NCBI GenBank assembly: GCA_009780995.1
Contig: WQYY01000005.1
Coordinates: 1-32,059 of the forward strand
Length of the DNA: 32,059 nucleotides
Origin: Desulfuromonadales bacterium
GTDB taxonomy: Bacteria; Desulfobacterota; Desulfuromonadia; Geobacterales; DSM-12255
Direction: 5' to 3'
Under the pieces are notes generated by a model. The model saw only the letters and a list, made by a program, of their open reading frames with translations. It ran no database searches and had not been told where the DNA came from. This document shows positions 23,957-32,059 of the stretch, piece after piece (position 1 is the stretch's first letter; each line of letters starts with the position of its first letter). The translations under genes and the position numbers were made by a program.

Positions 23957-24427
23957 TCACTTTCTGGCTTTGCCCGACATCTCATTTATGATTATCTTAA
24001 AAACCCTTGCTTTATCAATATCTGAATTAATATACTTCTCACCTTCTTTAATATATTGGCTGGAATATTTTGTAACAAACCCTCTTAAAGCGCACTTCTT
24101 TTCTAAAGCGAACACTTCCTCAGCTAAACCAGACACAATGACACTTTCATACTTTGTACTGAATTTTGCAGGGAGAATTTCAGTACCGCCTACAACACAA
24201 AAAGAAACTCTCTTATCAGACGTGATATTATCAACCTTGCGCCCCTCTATCGCAGAATGAAAGTAAAGAGCATTCCCTATGAGGCAGTAACTCAGAGGGA
24301 TACCATAAGGGAGCCCGTCAGGAGACAGAGTAGAGAGCACCCCGTATTCACCTCTAAGAAGTAAATCCATTGCAGCGTCATCACAGATGCCCCTATCTTT
24401 TCGGCGTAGTTCATGCCTCAATTTCAA
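23957..24427 (-). CDS. Pyridoxamine 5'-phosphate oxidase-fold flavin-binding protein (NimA-like)
   Basis: 156 aa split-barrel protein. The pattern starts LRRKDRGICDDAAMDLLLRG, then YGVLSTLSPDGLPYGIPLSY, LYFHSAIEGRKVDNI and KRVSFCVVGG. This is the arrangement of the NimA-type branch of the PNPOx-like family, whose members bind FMN or heme; some give 5-nitroimidazole resistance. The physiological substrate here is unknown. The start follows an AGAAGGGGG site. It converges with the HD gene across a 76-bp gap with no obvious terminator. Confidence 0.85.
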   Translation of the reverse strand: MKLRHELRRKDRGICDDAAMDLLLRGEYGVLSTLSPDGLPYGIPLSYCLIGNALYFHSAIEGRKVDNITSDKRVSFCVVGGTEILPAKFSTKYESVIVSGLAEEVFALEKKCALRGFVTKYSSQYIKEGEKYINSDIDKARVFKIIINEMSGKARK

Positions 24428-24775: not shown

Positions 24776-25708
24776 TCACGCCCAATTTTGGGCATTTTGC
24801 AATATATTCATAAAAAATCTCGGATCTTTAAAGTAAAAACAGATTATATTATTCCTCGCGTAATCAGTAGAGATAACTATGGCATCACTATACGGATCGA
24901 TAGAAACTATTTTTTCGTGTTTGATACGTTTAGAAGCATCTCCGGTTGCATAGCCTCTGGTTGTGTAATATATATGCTTAGAAGTGATAGCCACTATCGC
25001 GCTGCCGAGAGGTACAATCGAAGTTTCGGAAACCCTTCGCCCTTCAAAGTCGCTGCCCCTCAGGTATAAGCCCTTAGCAATCCTGACTGAACCACCTATA
25101 GAGCTGCCAACAAACTTACTTGTAGTTTTAGGGATCGCAATCGGAATGTCAGTCCCTGCCCAAATCAGCAGTTCTGTCTTCTGAAAATTGAAAGGCAACC
25201 CATTTGTGCTAAATGATGGAGATTTGTTGCAGTTCAGCAGATTCCTTAACACTTCACCACTTAGCAACAAATTCCTAATGTTTGCAGGAATATCATCAGC
25301 TTGTATCTTGTACTGTCCTAACAGGGAAAAAATTTGCCGCTCTCTTTCCTCTGATAATAGCCCGTCGTCCATGTCTCTAACTGCTATTTCATTTGCGGCT
25401 TGGCAGACAATATCTTTGATATATAGATAAGAAAGCGCCAAAGGCCTAGATGCCTCTTGTATTTTAGAAAAAATTGCTTCGGTTGGTGTCTTTGAAAAGA
25501 CTTCACGCACGACCATATCTTTAATTTCGTTTATAGCGTTTGTTCTTTTGTCTTGAGCGCGTTTGTATAATGCGGTAAGACACCCAGGACAAATATCATC
25601 AGGCGCATCAATTCCTTTCCCCCGGGCGGTATTTATATCCGTTGCGCTTACTTTGGAAGAGCCGAAAATCAGTCCAAATCTTTTCCCGCATATTGCACAA
25701 TTCGCCAT
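24776..25708 (-). CDS. Zinc-ribbon protein with C-terminal PH-like domain, unknown function
   Basis: 310 aa, no signal peptide. The N-terminus has CAIC (C4, C7) and CPGC (C40, C43), a four-cysteine zinc finger separated by about 32 residues. The middle (50-165) is helical. The C-terminal 130 residues contain KFVGSSIGGSVRIAKGLYLRG (as GGSVRIAKGLYLR), an AITSKHIYY strand, then KIKHEKIVSIDPYSD-like motifs. This series recurs in many bacterial proteins of unknown role and resembles a bacterial pleckstrin-homology-like fold. It follows the membrane-protein gene by 30 bp and ends at a hairpin terminator. Position beside DISARM suggests an accessory or defence role, as inference only. Confidence 0.65.
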   Translation of the reverse strand: MANCAICGKRFGLIFGSSKVSATDINTARGKGIDAPDDICPGCLTALYKRAQDKRTNAINEIKDMVVREVFSKTPTEAIFSKIQEASRPLALSYLYIKDIVCQAANEIAVRDMDDGLLSEERERQIFSLLGQYKIQADDIPANIRNLLLSGEVLRNLLNCNKSPSFSTNGLPFNFQKTELLIWAGTDIPIAIPKTTSKFVGSSIGGSVRIAKGLYLRGSDFEGRRVSETSIVPLGSAIVAITSKHIYYTTRGYATGDASKRIKHEKIVSIDPYSDAIVISTDYARNNIICFYFKDPRFFMNILQNAQNWA

Positions 25709-25738: not shown

Positions 25739-26671
25739 TTATTTGCTGTTTAAATTTGCTTTATATTCTTCAATCACACTTTTCCTCAATTTTTTTGACA
25801 GACTTTCTATCTTTGCTTGAAGCTTAGGCATATCAATAGCATGTGTCATAAGGAATTTAGGATTGAATAAATCGCTTTCATTTGCTTGTATTTTTCTAAT
25901 TTGCTCTTTCATCTCTTCGTTGGACTTTTCCATATCTGCTATCGGAGATAATAGAAACCCTCTTTTTATCTCAAGAGATATTTCCCGGAGCTCTTGATTT
26001 ACAATTAATGAATTAAAATCAATAGCTGATTTGCAAAGATATCGATATCGCTCAACAATCTTTTCAGCTACTTTAATAATTTTGTCTGCATCTGCTGGAG
26101 TTCCTTCTGCTCCCATAGCATCAAGGAATTCCGCCTCGATTATATGATCACCCGATGATTCGAATGATTTGATCATTGTAATTATTTCCTTTGTTTTTGC
26201 CGACAGCCATTCAACAGTTTCTATGGCAACATCTCGCTTCAGGGTACTTAAAGCTTCCGGGATATTATCATTACACGCTCTTTTTAAATCTGCTGAATTT
26301 TTAATACCAGCATCAATAACTTCCGAAAATAAAATAGCTTCCCAACCTCTCTCATTTTTATCAATATTTTGTAATATCTGAGAGGGATCAATTATGGATT
26401 CTGTTTCTTCGATCGATTTTGCATCTTTATTAACCCATTGTTTATCCATATTCAAATCGGGTAACTCTTTTTCCAAGTCTTTATAGCTTTCTTTTTTTGT
26501 GGAAGATTTTTTAACGCCCTCTGTGAATTGCCAACTGACAAAAATTAAAAATATTACAAAGAAAAAAATAGGCAATATGATGTTTCTACTACCAAGCGAA
26601 GCCATAAAACAGGAAAACAATATTATAAAGCCCATACAGCCAAAACAAGAAGGCCCCGCTTTAGAACTCAT
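25739..26671 (-). CDS. Membrane-anchored helical protein, unknown function
   Basis: 310 aa; I do not recognise it. Two hydrophobic stretches lie at about 11-26 and 31-47 and form a hairpin or a long anchor. The remaining 260 residues are charged and helical, with coiled-coil-like runs near 235-265 and 280-305. A cysteine pair CFGC falls just before the first hydrophobic segment. It begins after a GGAG site and is first in a two-gene unit with the zinc-finger/PH-like protein. The pair is transcribed away from drmE, sharing a 256-bp intergenic region with it. Confidence 0.6.
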   Translation of the reverse strand: MSSKAGPSCFGCMGFIILFSCFMASLGSRNIILPIFFFVIFLIFVSWQFTEGVKKSSTKKESYKDLEKELPDLNMDKQWVNKDAKSIEETESIIDPSQILQNIDKNERGWEAILFSEVIDAGIKNSADLKRACNDNIPEALSTLKRDVAIETVEWLSAKTKEIITMIKSFESSGDHIIEAEFLDAMGAEGTPADADKIIKVAEKIVERYRYLCKSAIDFNSLIVNQELREISLEIKRGFLLSPIADMEKSNEEMKEQIRKIQANESDLFNPKFLMTHAIDMPKLQAKIESLSKKLRKSVIEEYKANLNSK

Positions 26672-26927: not shown

Positions 26928-29225
26928 ATGTGGGTAATGTCTATGGCTCTCAACGAAAATTATTACAACAAACTTTTTGACAAATATTCTATCTCAAAAG
27001 ATTGCAACAGGGTCGTAGAACTTACGGCTGCTATGATATTGGGAGCTTACAATAACAAAAACGTCTATTTTAATTTCCCTAGAAGTTATGATTTAAAGGC
27101 AATTACAAACTTGCTATACGAGAATTTCTCGAAACAAATTTTTACAAGGTATGCAGACTTACTCGATTATTTTATTGGAGATAAGTTCAAAAGGAATAAT
27201 GAAAAGGGGATATATGTAATAACTGATATTGGGGATAAAAAATATTCTTTGAAAAAAGAAAATGATCCTTGGGAAACATTTAGACCCGATATTACATATG
27301 ATCGACTCACACGCGAATACACTCGGGTTAAACAAAGTGTGAAAAATAACACATTGTCAAAATTCGACTATTTTTTCAAAGATGCAAATAATTTTGAATT
27401 TTTGCCCACTAGTTTTTCTAAGAAACTCGTTTTAATCGCAAAGCAAACAATGTGGAACAATTTGACAAACAAAAATTGCATTCCTTCAACATATTTGCCC
27501 AACACACGAGACGGCGAACAAACAATAAAACGTTCCATTGAAGCATTAGAAGATTGTATCGCTTATGTGACCCCGAAATATGAAGTGTGTTATGAAGAAA
27601 TTTTGAAAAAGAATATTGCGGTTGATACAATTATTGTCTGTGATGCCGATTTAAATTCCATTTCTCAAATAGTACAAGATCAATCAAGATTTAACTTCAA
27701 ATTGATTGTGCTTTCAAATGAAAGTGGCATACAAAAATTTATTAATATTACACTTTGGAATTGGCAAAAAGAAGAAATTGAATTATTGGAACATACAAAT
27801 TGCAGTAAAGTAGAGATAGAATGTATTGAAGACGAAAAAATGGATAATCTCATTCAACATTTTGAAGAAAGTATGAGTTATGTATCTTCGCTTGAGCCAC
27901 CGATAAAACTCAAAAGTTACGGTTACTTTTTACGTTTAGCGTTGAATGCTTTACAAGAGGAACAATTTGATTATCTGTTCATGCGATTAAAAAACAATAA
28001 AGAGTTGGAACGAAATGAAGGTGGTTATGAAGATTTTGGTAACAAGAACCCAAAAGAAGCATTGAAAAATCTACTTCTATTCTTAAAAGAAAACAATCCA
28101 AAACAAAAAAAACTAAAAGACATGATTTTGCGCGTTGTAAAAAAAACTTTGATTGTTGCCGATAGAGAAGATATTGATTGTTTTAAAACAATAAGAAATA
28201 GTAATTGCAAAGTTATTACAAATTCAGAGCTAAAAAAATTACTCAAAAACGGAGAAACAGATATAAAAAATATTATGTTTTACTCCTTTAATGGTTCAAA
28301 GGATTTCAATTTTATTTACAATTTACAGAATAATGTAAAATTGGTTTTGCACAAACAGGAAAAAGAATTATATTGCAAGCAATTACAAATTTACACAAAG
28401 CAACTTGAAGAGGAATTAACAAGTGCAGACAGGGTTTCAGTTTGTGGCATAAAATACGAGCCAATAGCAACAGAAGAAATAAAAGTGAGTCCGACTTTGG
28501 AACAAATCATTGAACGACTTGACCAACGCTCAAATACTGCTTACGATGGCTATAAAACAGAGGGTGACAGTTTATTAGACGATTTGGAAGAAGAAATTAC
28601 GTACAAAATCACAATGTCAAACGGCGAAACTTGGAAAATACAAAGTAATGAAACCGTTTTTGACATAAAAGGAAACCTTATAAAATCTTACAGGTTAAAA
28701 GAAAATAGTAAAATTAGAATTTATCCAAAAGACCAATTAGCGGAAAATCTGCTTCAAATTGCCGTTGACGTAGAACCTGATAAATTCGGGAAAATTGATG
28801 AACACTCTAATTGTTGGAAGGATGTCTTGAAATCATTAGACATTCAGTACTCCAACAGAGAAACACTCTATCAAAAATTGAAAGAAAGCGGTTTGCGAGT
28901 TTCGCCAATGACTGTTAATTCATATTTTCGTGGGAACAGAAAATTTCCAATGTTCAACTTAGATTTGAAAGCAATTTTAAATTTGGCAAACAAAGAATAT
29001 TTGCTACCTGCAATCAAAAATTCTAAACGACTTTATAACAGCACAATGATTGCTTTGGGTCGTGGATTAAAACAAGAATTACAACAATTCTTGCAAGACA
29101 AAATAATTGGCGAAATTTTACAGAAGAAAGGATTTACGGCAGAAGCATTACAGCAATTCACAAATGAATTTATGCCATTATTAACAATCACAAAAATAGA
29201 AGAAATAATCGATGATGAACAATAG
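26928..29225 (+). CDS. drmE: DISARM class 2 protein DrmE
   Basis: 765 aa. The identification rests on overall pattern and above all on context: the next, overlapping gene is an unmistakable DrmA. DrmE is the marker of class 2 DISARM and its biochemical role is unknown. What can be seen: no signal peptide or membrane segment; a helical N-terminus; alternating strand-helix segments (TIIVCDAD near 235, FKLIVLSNE near 255, KTLIVADRE near 408) suggesting Rossmann-like halves; and a C-terminal part (from about 620) with a helix-turn-helix-like PMTVNSYFRGNRKF. Three in-frame ATGs compete (26928, 26937, 26943); only a modest AAGG lies upstream, best spaced for 26937. The gene is visibly A/T-richer than the core genes. 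Confidence 0.82.
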   Translation: MWVMSMALNENYYNKLFDKYSISKDCNRVVELTAAMILGAYNNKNVYFNFPRSYDLKAITNLLYENFSKQIFTRYADLLDYFIGDKFKRNNEKGIYVITDIGDKKYSLKKENDPWETFRPDITYDRLTREYTRVKQSVKNNTLSKFDYFFKDANNFEFLPTSFSKKLVLIAKQTMWNNLTNKNCIPSTYLPNTRDGEQTIKRSIEALEDCIAYVTPKYEVCYEEILKKNIAVDTIIVCDADLNSISQIVQDQSRFNFKLIVLSNESGIQKFINITLWNWQKEEIELLEHTNCSKVEIECIEDEKMDNLIQHFEESMSYVSSLEPPIKLKSYGYFLRLALNALQEEQFDYLFMRLKNNKELERNEGGYEDFGNKNPKEALKNLLLFLKENNPKQKKLKDMILRVVKKTLIVADREDIDCFKTIRNSNCKVITNSELKKLLKNGETDIKNIMFYSFNGSKDFNFIYNLQNNVKLVLHKQEKELYCKQLQIYTKQLEEELTSADRVSVCGIKYEPIATEEIKVSPTLEQIIERLDQRSNTAYDGYKTEGDSLLDDLEEEITYKITMSNGETWKIQSNETVFDIKGNLIKSYRLKENSKIRIYPKDQLAENLLQIAVDVEPDKFGKIDEHSNCWKDVLKSLDIQYSNRETLYQKLKESGLRVSPMTVNSYFRGNRKFPMFNLDLKAILNLANKEYLLPAIKNSKRLYNSTMIALGRGLKQELQQFLQDKIIGEILQKKGFTAEALQQFTNEFMPLLTITKIEEIIDDEQ

Positions 29226-32059
29226 AGAACAAGTAATTTCGAGAGTTCGGAAAGAACTGATTGGGCCGGATACTGATTTGTTTGAGTGCGAAGACAAGGT
29301 AAATTTTTCGGACGAAATTATTGCAGACAAACCGTTATTGCGATACTTCTCAGGAATATTGTACCCGAAACAAACCGCAATTGGCGATTTCGTAGAAGAT
29401 GATGATGAAAATGATGAAACTCCCGCCGAAGTCGCAGACGCAAACAATGATGCGAATGTAGAACCAGAAGAAATTGAAAAGACAGGCGAAGTTAAAGAAG
29501 ACAACAAAGACGTTCAATATTCCGCAAGTACATTTTTCCCTTCGCAATACGGAATTTCATTTGCAATTTCAAAAGATTGCCCAGAATTGAAAATCAAACT
29601 CTCCTTTGGCAATTACAAAAAAGCAAAGTCAAAAGAAATTTCAATTTTCTATTATGGTGATATTATCAACGCAGACAGCGGCAATAGTTTATTTGATGAG
29701 TTTGGATTACAACAATTTGTTGAATATGATACAGAAAACAAGCTGCTTACACTTCCTAAAGAACTCTCAAAAGAACAAAAGCAACAAAGAAGCAGTTGTT
29801 TCAATTCATTTGGCAAAGACCATCGAAATAGCGGATTATATAACATATTAAAAAAACTGTTTTTTAAAGACAAATACAAGCGATATGACAATAAAATAGA
29901 AGCAATTATTTCTATTAGCAAAATAAAGCAGGCAGAAAATCAGCATTATAAAATCTTACTGTCTGATATTGCAGGAGTGAATACGGAAAATTGGTGGAAA
30001 AGTAAAGAAGAATCTTTGAAAGATAAATTGTTGCTTCACATCAAATTGTACAACCAACCCGATAATAAATTTATTGTTAAAGTTTTCATTGAAAATACAC
30101 TATTGTTTCCACGCGCAAAATTTTCTACTGGCAAAGAAAGTCTAAATATGGCGTGTCTTTTTCAAACAGAAATTAAGATTGAAACACCATACTTATTGCA
30201 ATTTAATGATTATAAAAACAATCTGCACAAGTCTGACGAAGATAAAATGTTGGATTTTCTTTATCGTGAAAAACTATCATATGGATTAGGACATAACACC
30301 GCTTGCACTTGGGAAGATTGCGAAGATGATACTAAAAAACCAACTTGGATAAGTTCTACTTTTTTACCACAATTTAATGTGAAAAGCCAAAGCACTGATA
30401 TTAAAAATTTTGATAAAAAAAGTTTGGAAATAAAACAGTTATCTGGTTTCAATAAAGAAAAAAATACGATTACTTCAAATCTTAAAAAATTGTCTGCTAC
30501 TTATGCAGAGTGGATTTCTGCTGAAGAAAATGAAACAAAGAAATTAAATGATTCCGACAAGGTATTAGCAATAGAGAATATTGTAAAATGCAGAAAAATA
30601 CATACACGAATGCAAAAAGGTATTGAACTGTTAGAGCAGAACAACAATGCAATGCGTGCTTTTCAGTTGGCAAACACGGCAATTTATCTGCAAATGTTCC
30701 AACACCAGTGGCATTTTAGCGAACGAAAAGATGGCTTTGAGGCATATGAAAGAACCGACAGCCCACAATATACTTATAAGGAATACGAGACAAAAGAATA
30801 TCCCGATCCAAATAGAGTTCCGAGTTGGCGACCTTTCCAATTAGCATTTATTCTACAGTGCTTACCGTCTTTTTTTGATGAAAATTCAGAAGATAGGGAT
30901 TTAGTTGATTTGCTGTATTTCCCAACAGGTGGCGGTAAAACAGAAGCATATTTGGCATTATCTGCGTTCTTGATTTTTTGGCGGAGATTGCAATTTCCGG
31001 ATGATTATGGCGGTGTGAATATCATAATACGCTATACATTGAGATTACTTTCCGCACAACAGTTTGAACGTGCCACTAAACTGATTTTAGCCTGTGAATT
31101 TATTCGCAAAAATCACAAGGATCTAGGAAATGAACGAATTACTATCGGTTTTTGGGTGGGTGGTTCAACGATTCCAAATTCGATAAAAGATGCAAAAGAA
31201 AAACTTGCGAAAACGCAAGAACGACTAAATAACGATTGGTATTCTATAAATCCTTTCCAATTATCGAATTGTCAATGGTGCAATACAAAGATAATTAGCA
31301 GGCTGCAAGAAAACTCAAATGCAAATATTGGCCATAGAATTAACAGGCATAATCGTTTAAGCAGTTTTTGCTTAAATCCAAATTGTGAATATTCTGAAAC
31401 GAACAGCGAATTTCCAATAGTTGTAGTCGATGAAGACATTTACGAAAATCCGCCGACAATGCTGTTTGCAACAGTAGATAAATTTGCCCAACTGGCGTGG
31501 AAAGGCGAGGCAACAAGTTTATTCAATTCTCAAAATTCAAATGGTAACGACAATCGTAAACCCGAACTTATCATACAAGACGAGTTACATCTATTGAGTG
31601 GCCCGCTTGGTAGTTTAGTCGGGCTTTTTGAAAACGTGATTTTATCGCTATGCACAACCAAGATACAAAGGCCAAAAATCATAGTTTCAACAGCAACCGT
31701 TAAAAATGTTGAAGAACAGGTGAAAGGTTTGTATAGCCGACAAGTTCAGATTTTCCCGCAAAACGCCACCAATGCAGACGACACATTCTTTTCAAAAACT
31801 TTGCAGGAAAGTAACCGCCGTTATGTTGGAATTTTGCCAACAGGCAAAACGCAAACAATGACAACATTACGATTAAATGCGGCGTTACTTTTTGCTCGTT
31901 TGGAGTTGTGGAAAGACAGTGCAAATAAAACTGATGCAGACCAATTTTGGACGATTCTTTCCTATTTCAAGAGTTTGAAACATATAGGACGATTTTCTAA
32001 TAAAATAGTAGCAGAATTAAAACCTGAAATTAAACAGTTGCAAGTCCGTTATTTAATGA
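29212..32059 (+). CDS. drmA: DISARM helicase DrmA (3' end beyond window)
   Basis: The frame is open for 949 codons to the last base. The start ATG at 29212 (or 29215) lies inside the last codons of drmE, so the two overlap by up to 14 bp. The N-terminus (RVRKELIGPD, LLRYFSGILYPK, STFFPSQYGISFAI) matches DrmA. The SF2 helicase core has Walker A PTGGGKT (571-577), RYTLRLLSAQQFERA as motif Ia, a DEXH box DELH (790-793) and motif III STAT (826-829). A four-cysteine zinc site (C687, C690, C720, C725) interrupts the core. An acidic, low-complexity stretch (about 63-103) follows the N-terminal domain. DrmA loads on foreign DNA together with DrmB. The second RecA lobe and any C-terminal domain lie mostly outside. 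Confidence 0.92.
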   Translation, partial: MMNNREQVISRVRKELIGPDTDLFECEDKVNFSDEIIADKPLLRYFSGILYPKQTAIGDFVEDDDENDETPAEVADANNDANVEPEEIEKTGEVKEDNKDVQYSASTFFPSQYGISFAISKDCPELKIKLSFGNYKKAKSKEISIFYYGDIINADSGNSLFDEFGLQQFVEYDTENKLLTLPKELSKEQKQQRSSCFNSFGKDHRNSGLYNILKKLFFKDKYKRYDNKIEAIISISKIKQAENQHYKILLSDIAGVNTENWWKSKEESLKDKLLLHIKLYNQPDNKFIVKVFIENTLLFPRAKFSTGKESLNMACLFQTEIKIETPYLLQFNDYKNNLHKSDEDKMLDFLYREKLSYGLGHNTACTWEDCEDDTKKPTWISSTFLPQFNVKSQSTDIKNFDKKSLEIKQLSGFNKEKNTITSNLKKLSATYAEWISAEENETKKLNDSDKVLAIENIVKCRKIHTRMQKGIELLEQNNNAMRAFQLANTAIYLQMFQHQWHFSERKDGFEAYERTDSPQYTYKEYETKEYPDPNRVPSWRPFQLAFILQCLPSFFDENSEDRDLVDLLYFPTGGGKTEAYLALSAFLIFWRRLQFPDDYGGVNIIIRYTLRLLSAQQFERATKLILACEFIRKNHKDLGNERITIGFWVGGSTIPNSIKDAKEKLAKTQERLNNDWYSINPFQLSNCQWCNTKIISRLQENSNANIGHRINRHNRLSSFCLNPNCEYSETNSEFPIVVVDEDIYENPPTMLFATVDKFAQLAWKGEATSLFNSQNSNGNDNRKPELIIQDELHLLSGPLGSLVGLFENVILSLCTTKIQRPKIIVSTATVKNVEEQVKGLYSRQVQIFPQNATNADDTFFSKTLQESNRRYVGILPTGKTQTMTTLRLNAALLFARLELWKDSANKTDADQFWTILSYFKSLKHIGRFSNKIVAELKPEIKQLQVRYLM

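Follow-up and report, generated by a model that had tools for sequence, protein, structure and literature searches.

A drmE-drmA-drmB cassette of the DISARM type, lacking its own DNA methylase and DrmC, in a Desulfuromonadales bacterium

Whether methylation or the structure of DNA ends is the main cue by which DISARM spares the DNA of its host is an unsettled question, and so is the role of DrmE. Class 2 DISARM was reportedly described by Ofir et al. in 2018. In PADLOC, type II (class 2) is composed of DrmA, DrmB, DrmC, DrmE and DrmMII (PMC9252829). The sequence-only reading of the window (a stretch of 32,059 nucleotides, analysed as a whole) had interpreted two overlapping genes at its right end as the start of such a class 2 locus, with drmB, drmC and a C5-cytosine methylase gene to follow. 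This raises the question of whether the locus is a five-gene system of this kind or a form of DISARM with fewer components.

The locus and its continuation on a second contig

The window is identical with contig C5 (WQYY01000005.1), whose sequence ends at position 32059. As originally read, a drmE-like gene is followed at the window edge by drmA (Table 1), and the two open reading frames (ORFs) overlap by 14 nt. A search of the genome with a DrmA model located a second piece of drmA on the minus strand of contig C11, at the contig end, and the two pieces cover complementary parts of the profile (positions 2-888 on C5 and 908-1163 on C11). Read as its reverse complement, C11 begins with the last 9 bp of C5, in frame. 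When joined, DrmA has 1222 aa and could be aligned over its full length with the intact DrmA proteins of four Bacteroidota (54-56% identity), and the junction is gapless against these relatives, apart from ordinary loop variation. The overlap, together with this end-to-end alignment, makes the predicted adjacency of C5 and C11 well supported.

The drmB gene, sought within about 10 kb, is indeed present on C11; it encodes a protein of 620 aa and starts 3 nt past the rest of drmA. The 14-nt and 3-nt junctions imply that drmE, drmA and drmB form one operon. The next gene, approximately 160 bp beyond drmB, is ileS, followed by lspA, mfd and genes encoding peptidyl-prolyl isomerases (identified by eye); these occupy the region in which drmC and the C5-cytosine methylase gene had been expected.

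Table 1. Coordinates of the cassette features within the window
Feature	Position	Strand	Remarks
drmE-like gene	26928..29225	+	765 aa; single ORF
DrmE C-terminal region, approx. residues 620-748	28785..29171	+	shared with PF24957 DrmE_C via homologues
drmA, first 949 codons	29212..32059	+	open at contig end; rest at the C11 3' end, minus strand (L004 16198-17025)
DrmA acidic loop, residues 54-105	29371..29526	+	19 D/E of 52; 7S9V alignment
DrmA Walker A FPTGGGKT, residues 570-577	30919..30942	+	alignment
DrmA motif II DELH, residues 790-793	31579..31590	+	alignment
ATTTAATGA, 9-bp in-frame overlap of the C5 end with the start of the C11 reverse complement	32051..32059	+	

Just upstream of drmE, and divergent from the cassette, are two unannotated minus-strand genes (24776-25708 and 25739-26671), each encoding a protein of 310 aa, one with a Cys-rich N-terminus and the other with an N-terminal hydrophobic stretch; neither product had a family match above the cut-off in PADLOC, Pfam or NCBIfam. 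The minus strand also encodes a pyridoxamine 5'-phosphate oxidase-like protein (23957-24427), whose similarity to nitroimidazole reductases (NimABCDEF) is sub-threshold (93 bits vs the cut-off of 260).

The encoded proteins

The gene starting at position 29212 encodes DrmA according to both PADLOC (E = 1.6e-143) and NCBIfam, and was not assigned to an unrelated SF2 family. Its 949-aa fragment matched the NCBIfam model DISARM_DrmAS with E = 2.9e-199, and the joined protein matched Serratia DrmA (PDB 7S9V) with E = 1.2e-140. The NCBIfam score of DrmA is 899.5 bits, which is under the equivalog cut-off of 950. The helicase motifs (FPTGGGKT, DELH, STAT and QASSRVAR) are all intact in the alignment; helicase motifs had already been noticed in the letters. 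DrmB scored 349.5 bits with NF038324 (cut-off 240); its DUF1998/MZB zinc domain was detected by the MZB model above the cut-off, and the invariant cysteines are kept. Separate DrmA and DrmB proteins with helicase motifs place the locus within DISARM in the wide sense (the DrmAB core).

The 765-aa product of drmE, when used alone, had no match among the PADLOC, Pfam and NCBIfam models. Of 24 members of the family to which this protein belongs, 9 match the Pfam domain DrmE_C (PF24957), and a profile-profile comparison of an alignment of the protein and its four nearest relatives with independent DrmE proteins gave a probability of 95.6% (E = 1.2e-8, 532 columns). On the basis of these two results we assign the protein, by remote homology only, as a very divergent DrmE, and in this sense the name that the gene had been given was correct.

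No P-loop was found in this DrmE or in its close relatives, and a P-loop-like string occurs in only 3 of 54 members of the DrmE family, in two of them deep within the protein or towards its end. A Foldseek search with the full-length AlphaFold2 model of DrmE (pLDDT 82) returned mostly SF2 ATPases (LGP2, Mfd, Chd1, BLM) as the best PDB matches, the best with E = 4.4e-6, yet with a TM-score of only about 0.2; searched by itself, the N-terminal domain gave no significant match. For these reasons, DrmE was rejected as a clear SF2 helicase; that it may be a degenerate one is a reasonable guess from the model.

Residues 54-105 of DrmA lie opposite the trigger loop (residues 176-232) of Serratia DrmA 7S9V, in a weakly aligned region (11.5 bits). 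We considered the possibility that an extension of the trigger loop, or additional acidic residues in it, compensates for the missing methylase, and rejected it: relatives that carry a methylase have a loop of nearly the same length and acidity. The loop therefore does not represent an adaptation peculiar to the methylase-free clade.

Relatives, absent genes and origin of the cassette

Scanning of 84,980 genomes with a DrmA alignment yielded loci of which the best 80 were retained, their neighbouring genes being typed with models made from locally fetched seeds. A tree of 86 DrmA proteins places the DrmA studied here in a 15-member clade (SH-aLRT 98); the remaining 14 loci of this clade, from several phyla, all carry drmE-like, drmA and drmB genes. 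The hosts are mainly Bacteroidota, and also include Cloacimonetes (L046), Calditrichaeota (L052) and Candidatus Spongiihabitans (L060), which we take to be a gammaproteobacterium. C5-methylase, PLD/drmC and NERD helicase genes had no matches in the DNA examined at these 14 loci, four of which are on contigs shorter than 11 kb and one more of which extends only about 2.5 kb upstream. A C5-methylase gene is located nearby, within the fetched DNA, in 46 of 71 loci outside the clade (Fisher p = 4e-6 for the difference, uncorrected for relatedness). The drmE-drmA-drmB-only state requires 3 changes on the tree vs a mean of 14.1 after shuffling, and none of 500 shuffles gave so low a value. Adenine methylases in relatives were sought by motif only, and the one match (at L013) is HsdM of a type I system.

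Among the best 80 loci, the closest complete ones (L036-L039; hosts Ancylomarina euxinus, Alkalitalea saponilacus, [Flexibacter] sp. ATCC 35208 and a Chitinophagaceae MAG) group with our locus inside the clade (support 100), with 54-56% identity in DrmA and 55-60% in DrmB. They have the same gene content, and no methylase or PLD gene was found beside them, but drmE consists there of two ORFs (of about 300 and 490 aa; in L036, for example, with a 4-nt overlap). The split form is probably derived, since a single ORF, as found here, is the rule among more distant relatives. A partial drmA-drmB on a Methylococcaceae MAG contig of 4991 bp (L079) represents a different lineage and encodes the nearest DrmA found (64% identity over residues 679-1221 of our protein).

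The drmC gene (PLD nuclease) was not found at our locus, where ileS comes after drmB, and a C5-methylase gene was not found beside it on either C5 or C11. These negative results are not due to insensitive models, since the methylase and drmC/PLD models do find their targets in other DISARM loci. PF00145 (C5-methylase) had no match across the whole genome; because the assembly is 81.5% complete, absence elsewhere in the genome is not final, whereas absence from the locus is. As the other 14 loci of the clade also lack these genes, their absence looks like a property of the lineage.

The G+C content of drmE, drmA and drmB on both contigs is 31-35%, compared with 40-45% in most flanking genes, and no close copy of drmE, other than that in its own genome, occurred in the 147 relatives and the 395 genomes from the phylum that were searched. 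These features, together with the plasmid location of two members of the clade, fit horizontal acquisition of the cassette. In most close relatives ileS is adjoined by kup-like genes (identified by eye) rather than by the cassette, and the far flank is unconserved among them. The drmE product had no matches in phage records; no drmE-drmA-drmB-only locus was found among viral contigs, in which the DrmA relatives are at most 37% identical.

Proposed function and comparison with known systems

Our preferred reading, to which we give a probability of about 0.6, is that the locus is a complete, acquired drmE-drmA-drmB cassette of the DISARM type, from a DrmA lineage without its own DNA methylase or DrmC, which would spare self DNA on the basis of structure. 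As judged from sequence, it is most likely a methylation-independent variant of DISARM, with a putative anti-phage function. Phage and own DNA are probably told apart by means other than methylation, since the three-gene version lacks a methylase gene that would protect the host.

The main competing view is that drmE, drmA and drmB are only a local core, for which the host supplies methylation and a nuclease in trans (type I HsdM and PLD-family proteins), so that the system would still be a methylation-gated DISARM. An HsdM-type adenine methylase gene is present in the genome (contig C62), as are unlinked genes of PLD-family proteins (C21, C37 and C8), and recruitment of a host PLD nuclease was proposed by Bravo et al. 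(PMC9142583). We nevertheless regard this view as unlikely, given that class 2 systems are known to mark DNA with 5mC, for which the genome, at 81.5% completeness, yielded no methylase, and that cassettes carried by unrelated hosts and plasmids fit poorly with reliance on unlinked host genes. Still less probable is a decayed, non-functional remnant of class 2 DISARM that has lost drmC and drmMII: although two of the five genes in the PADLOC definition are missing, the three ORFs and catalytic motifs are all intact, and the other 14 members of the clade have an identical gene content.

There is very little room for a full class 2 system whose drmC and methylase genes lie in unassembled sequence. 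The incompleteness of the genome would allow it, but ileS directly past drmB and the two minus-strand genes upstream bound the cassette, and relatives on longer contigs also lack these genes. We give an equally slight chance to a helicase set of the MrfA/YprA type that serves DNA repair and not defence. DrmA and DrmB do belong to the YprA superfamily, in which MrfA acts in repair (PMC12458937). MrfAB/YprAB is characterized by a helicase-DUF1998 fusion and the MrfB exonuclease; here, the helicase and DUF1998 are in separate genes, as in the DISARM branch, an exonuclease gene is not adjacent, and drmE is present. Moreover, DISARM models score best, and the low G+C content, sparse distribution and plasmid carriage argue against a repair function.

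The preferred reading, a cassette relying on structure-based sparing of self DNA, can be related to the Serratia DrmAB structures (PDB 7S9V/7S9W), in which a loop restrains the complex until it is displaced by a 5'-overhang end (PMC9142583). In the same work, DrmC was described as dispensable and often missing, and discrimination via DNA structure was proposed (PMC9142583). By analogy, DrmA and DrmB would act as a ssDNA translocase, and the acidic loop would cover the DNA site until displaced by a 5'-overhang end, such as may occur on incoming or replicating phage DNA. ATP-driven loading and unwinding would then block phage replication, directly or via a recruited host nuclease, and DrmE, having no P-loop, would assist without catalysis, as an adaptor, clamp or sensor. 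The lack of a free 5' overhang, and not methylation, would protect self DNA. For a cassette devoid of methylase and nuclease genes, such structural discrimination is the simplest account.

Several facts count against this explanation: methylation lowers the ATPase activity of Serratia DrmAB (PMC9142583), the genome is 81.5% complete and encodes a type I adenine methylase, some relatives are on short contigs, the loop is ordinary, and the fold evidence for DrmE is weak. We advance only tentatively, with rather less than even confidence, the wider proposal of a stable DISARM subfamily of several phyla, without modification and nuclease genes, in which an ATP-driven DrmAB motor and a P-loop-less DrmE would distinguish self and non-self DNA solely by the structure of the ends. 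A natural three-gene version free of methylase and nuclease genes provides a minimal system in which both questions concerning DISARM, the cue that spares host DNA and the role of DrmE, can be tested directly.

DISARM, also without drmC, is already known. With class 2 the cassette shares drmE, drmA and drmB homologues in a single operon and a helicase separate from DUF1998; it differs in lacking drmC and drmMII, in a DrmE beyond the reach of existing models and in a DrmA score under the equivalog cut-off. The class 2 assignment originally made therefore stands for drmE, drmA and drmB, but not for drmC and the 5-methylcytosine methylase, which are missing here and, in the DNA examined, throughout the clade. 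The cassette is of the DISARM type with a class 2 flavour, outside the PADLOC definition of class 2, and cassettes of this kind would escape a rule demanding all five genes. Class 1 loci carry drmD and drmMI where this cassette has drmE. Serratia DrmA is homologous across the helicase core, with an acidic loop at the trigger-loop position, but with 1325 aa it exceeds our protein in length, and a methylase gene is part of its operon. ARMADA, BRIGADE and TALON (PMC12458937) are likewise defence systems with YprA-family helicases, but our cassette contains none of the components that these carry: a BrxHII-like helicase with a PglX-like methylase, a 7-deazaguanine cluster or a NERD nuclease.

A gene encoding a NERD-nuclease/UvrD-like helicase recurs as an accessory in DISARM-type loci that do not belong to our clade. 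It is placed between drmE and drmA in L015, L033, L034, L035, L058, L059, L064, L065, L067, L069, L070, L081, L082, L088, L092, L097 and L102, and after drmB in L045, L047 and L050; in these loci it may serve as a nuclease in place of DrmC.

McrBC is not located beside our locus, in contrast to the McrBC-associated "DISARM-like" cassette of Bell et al. 2024 (PMC11090510). McrC-like genes (recognized by eye, without a model) are found downstream of two cassettes of the clade, in L046 (21470-22726) and L049 (18222-19637), and perhaps correspond to the association outlined there.
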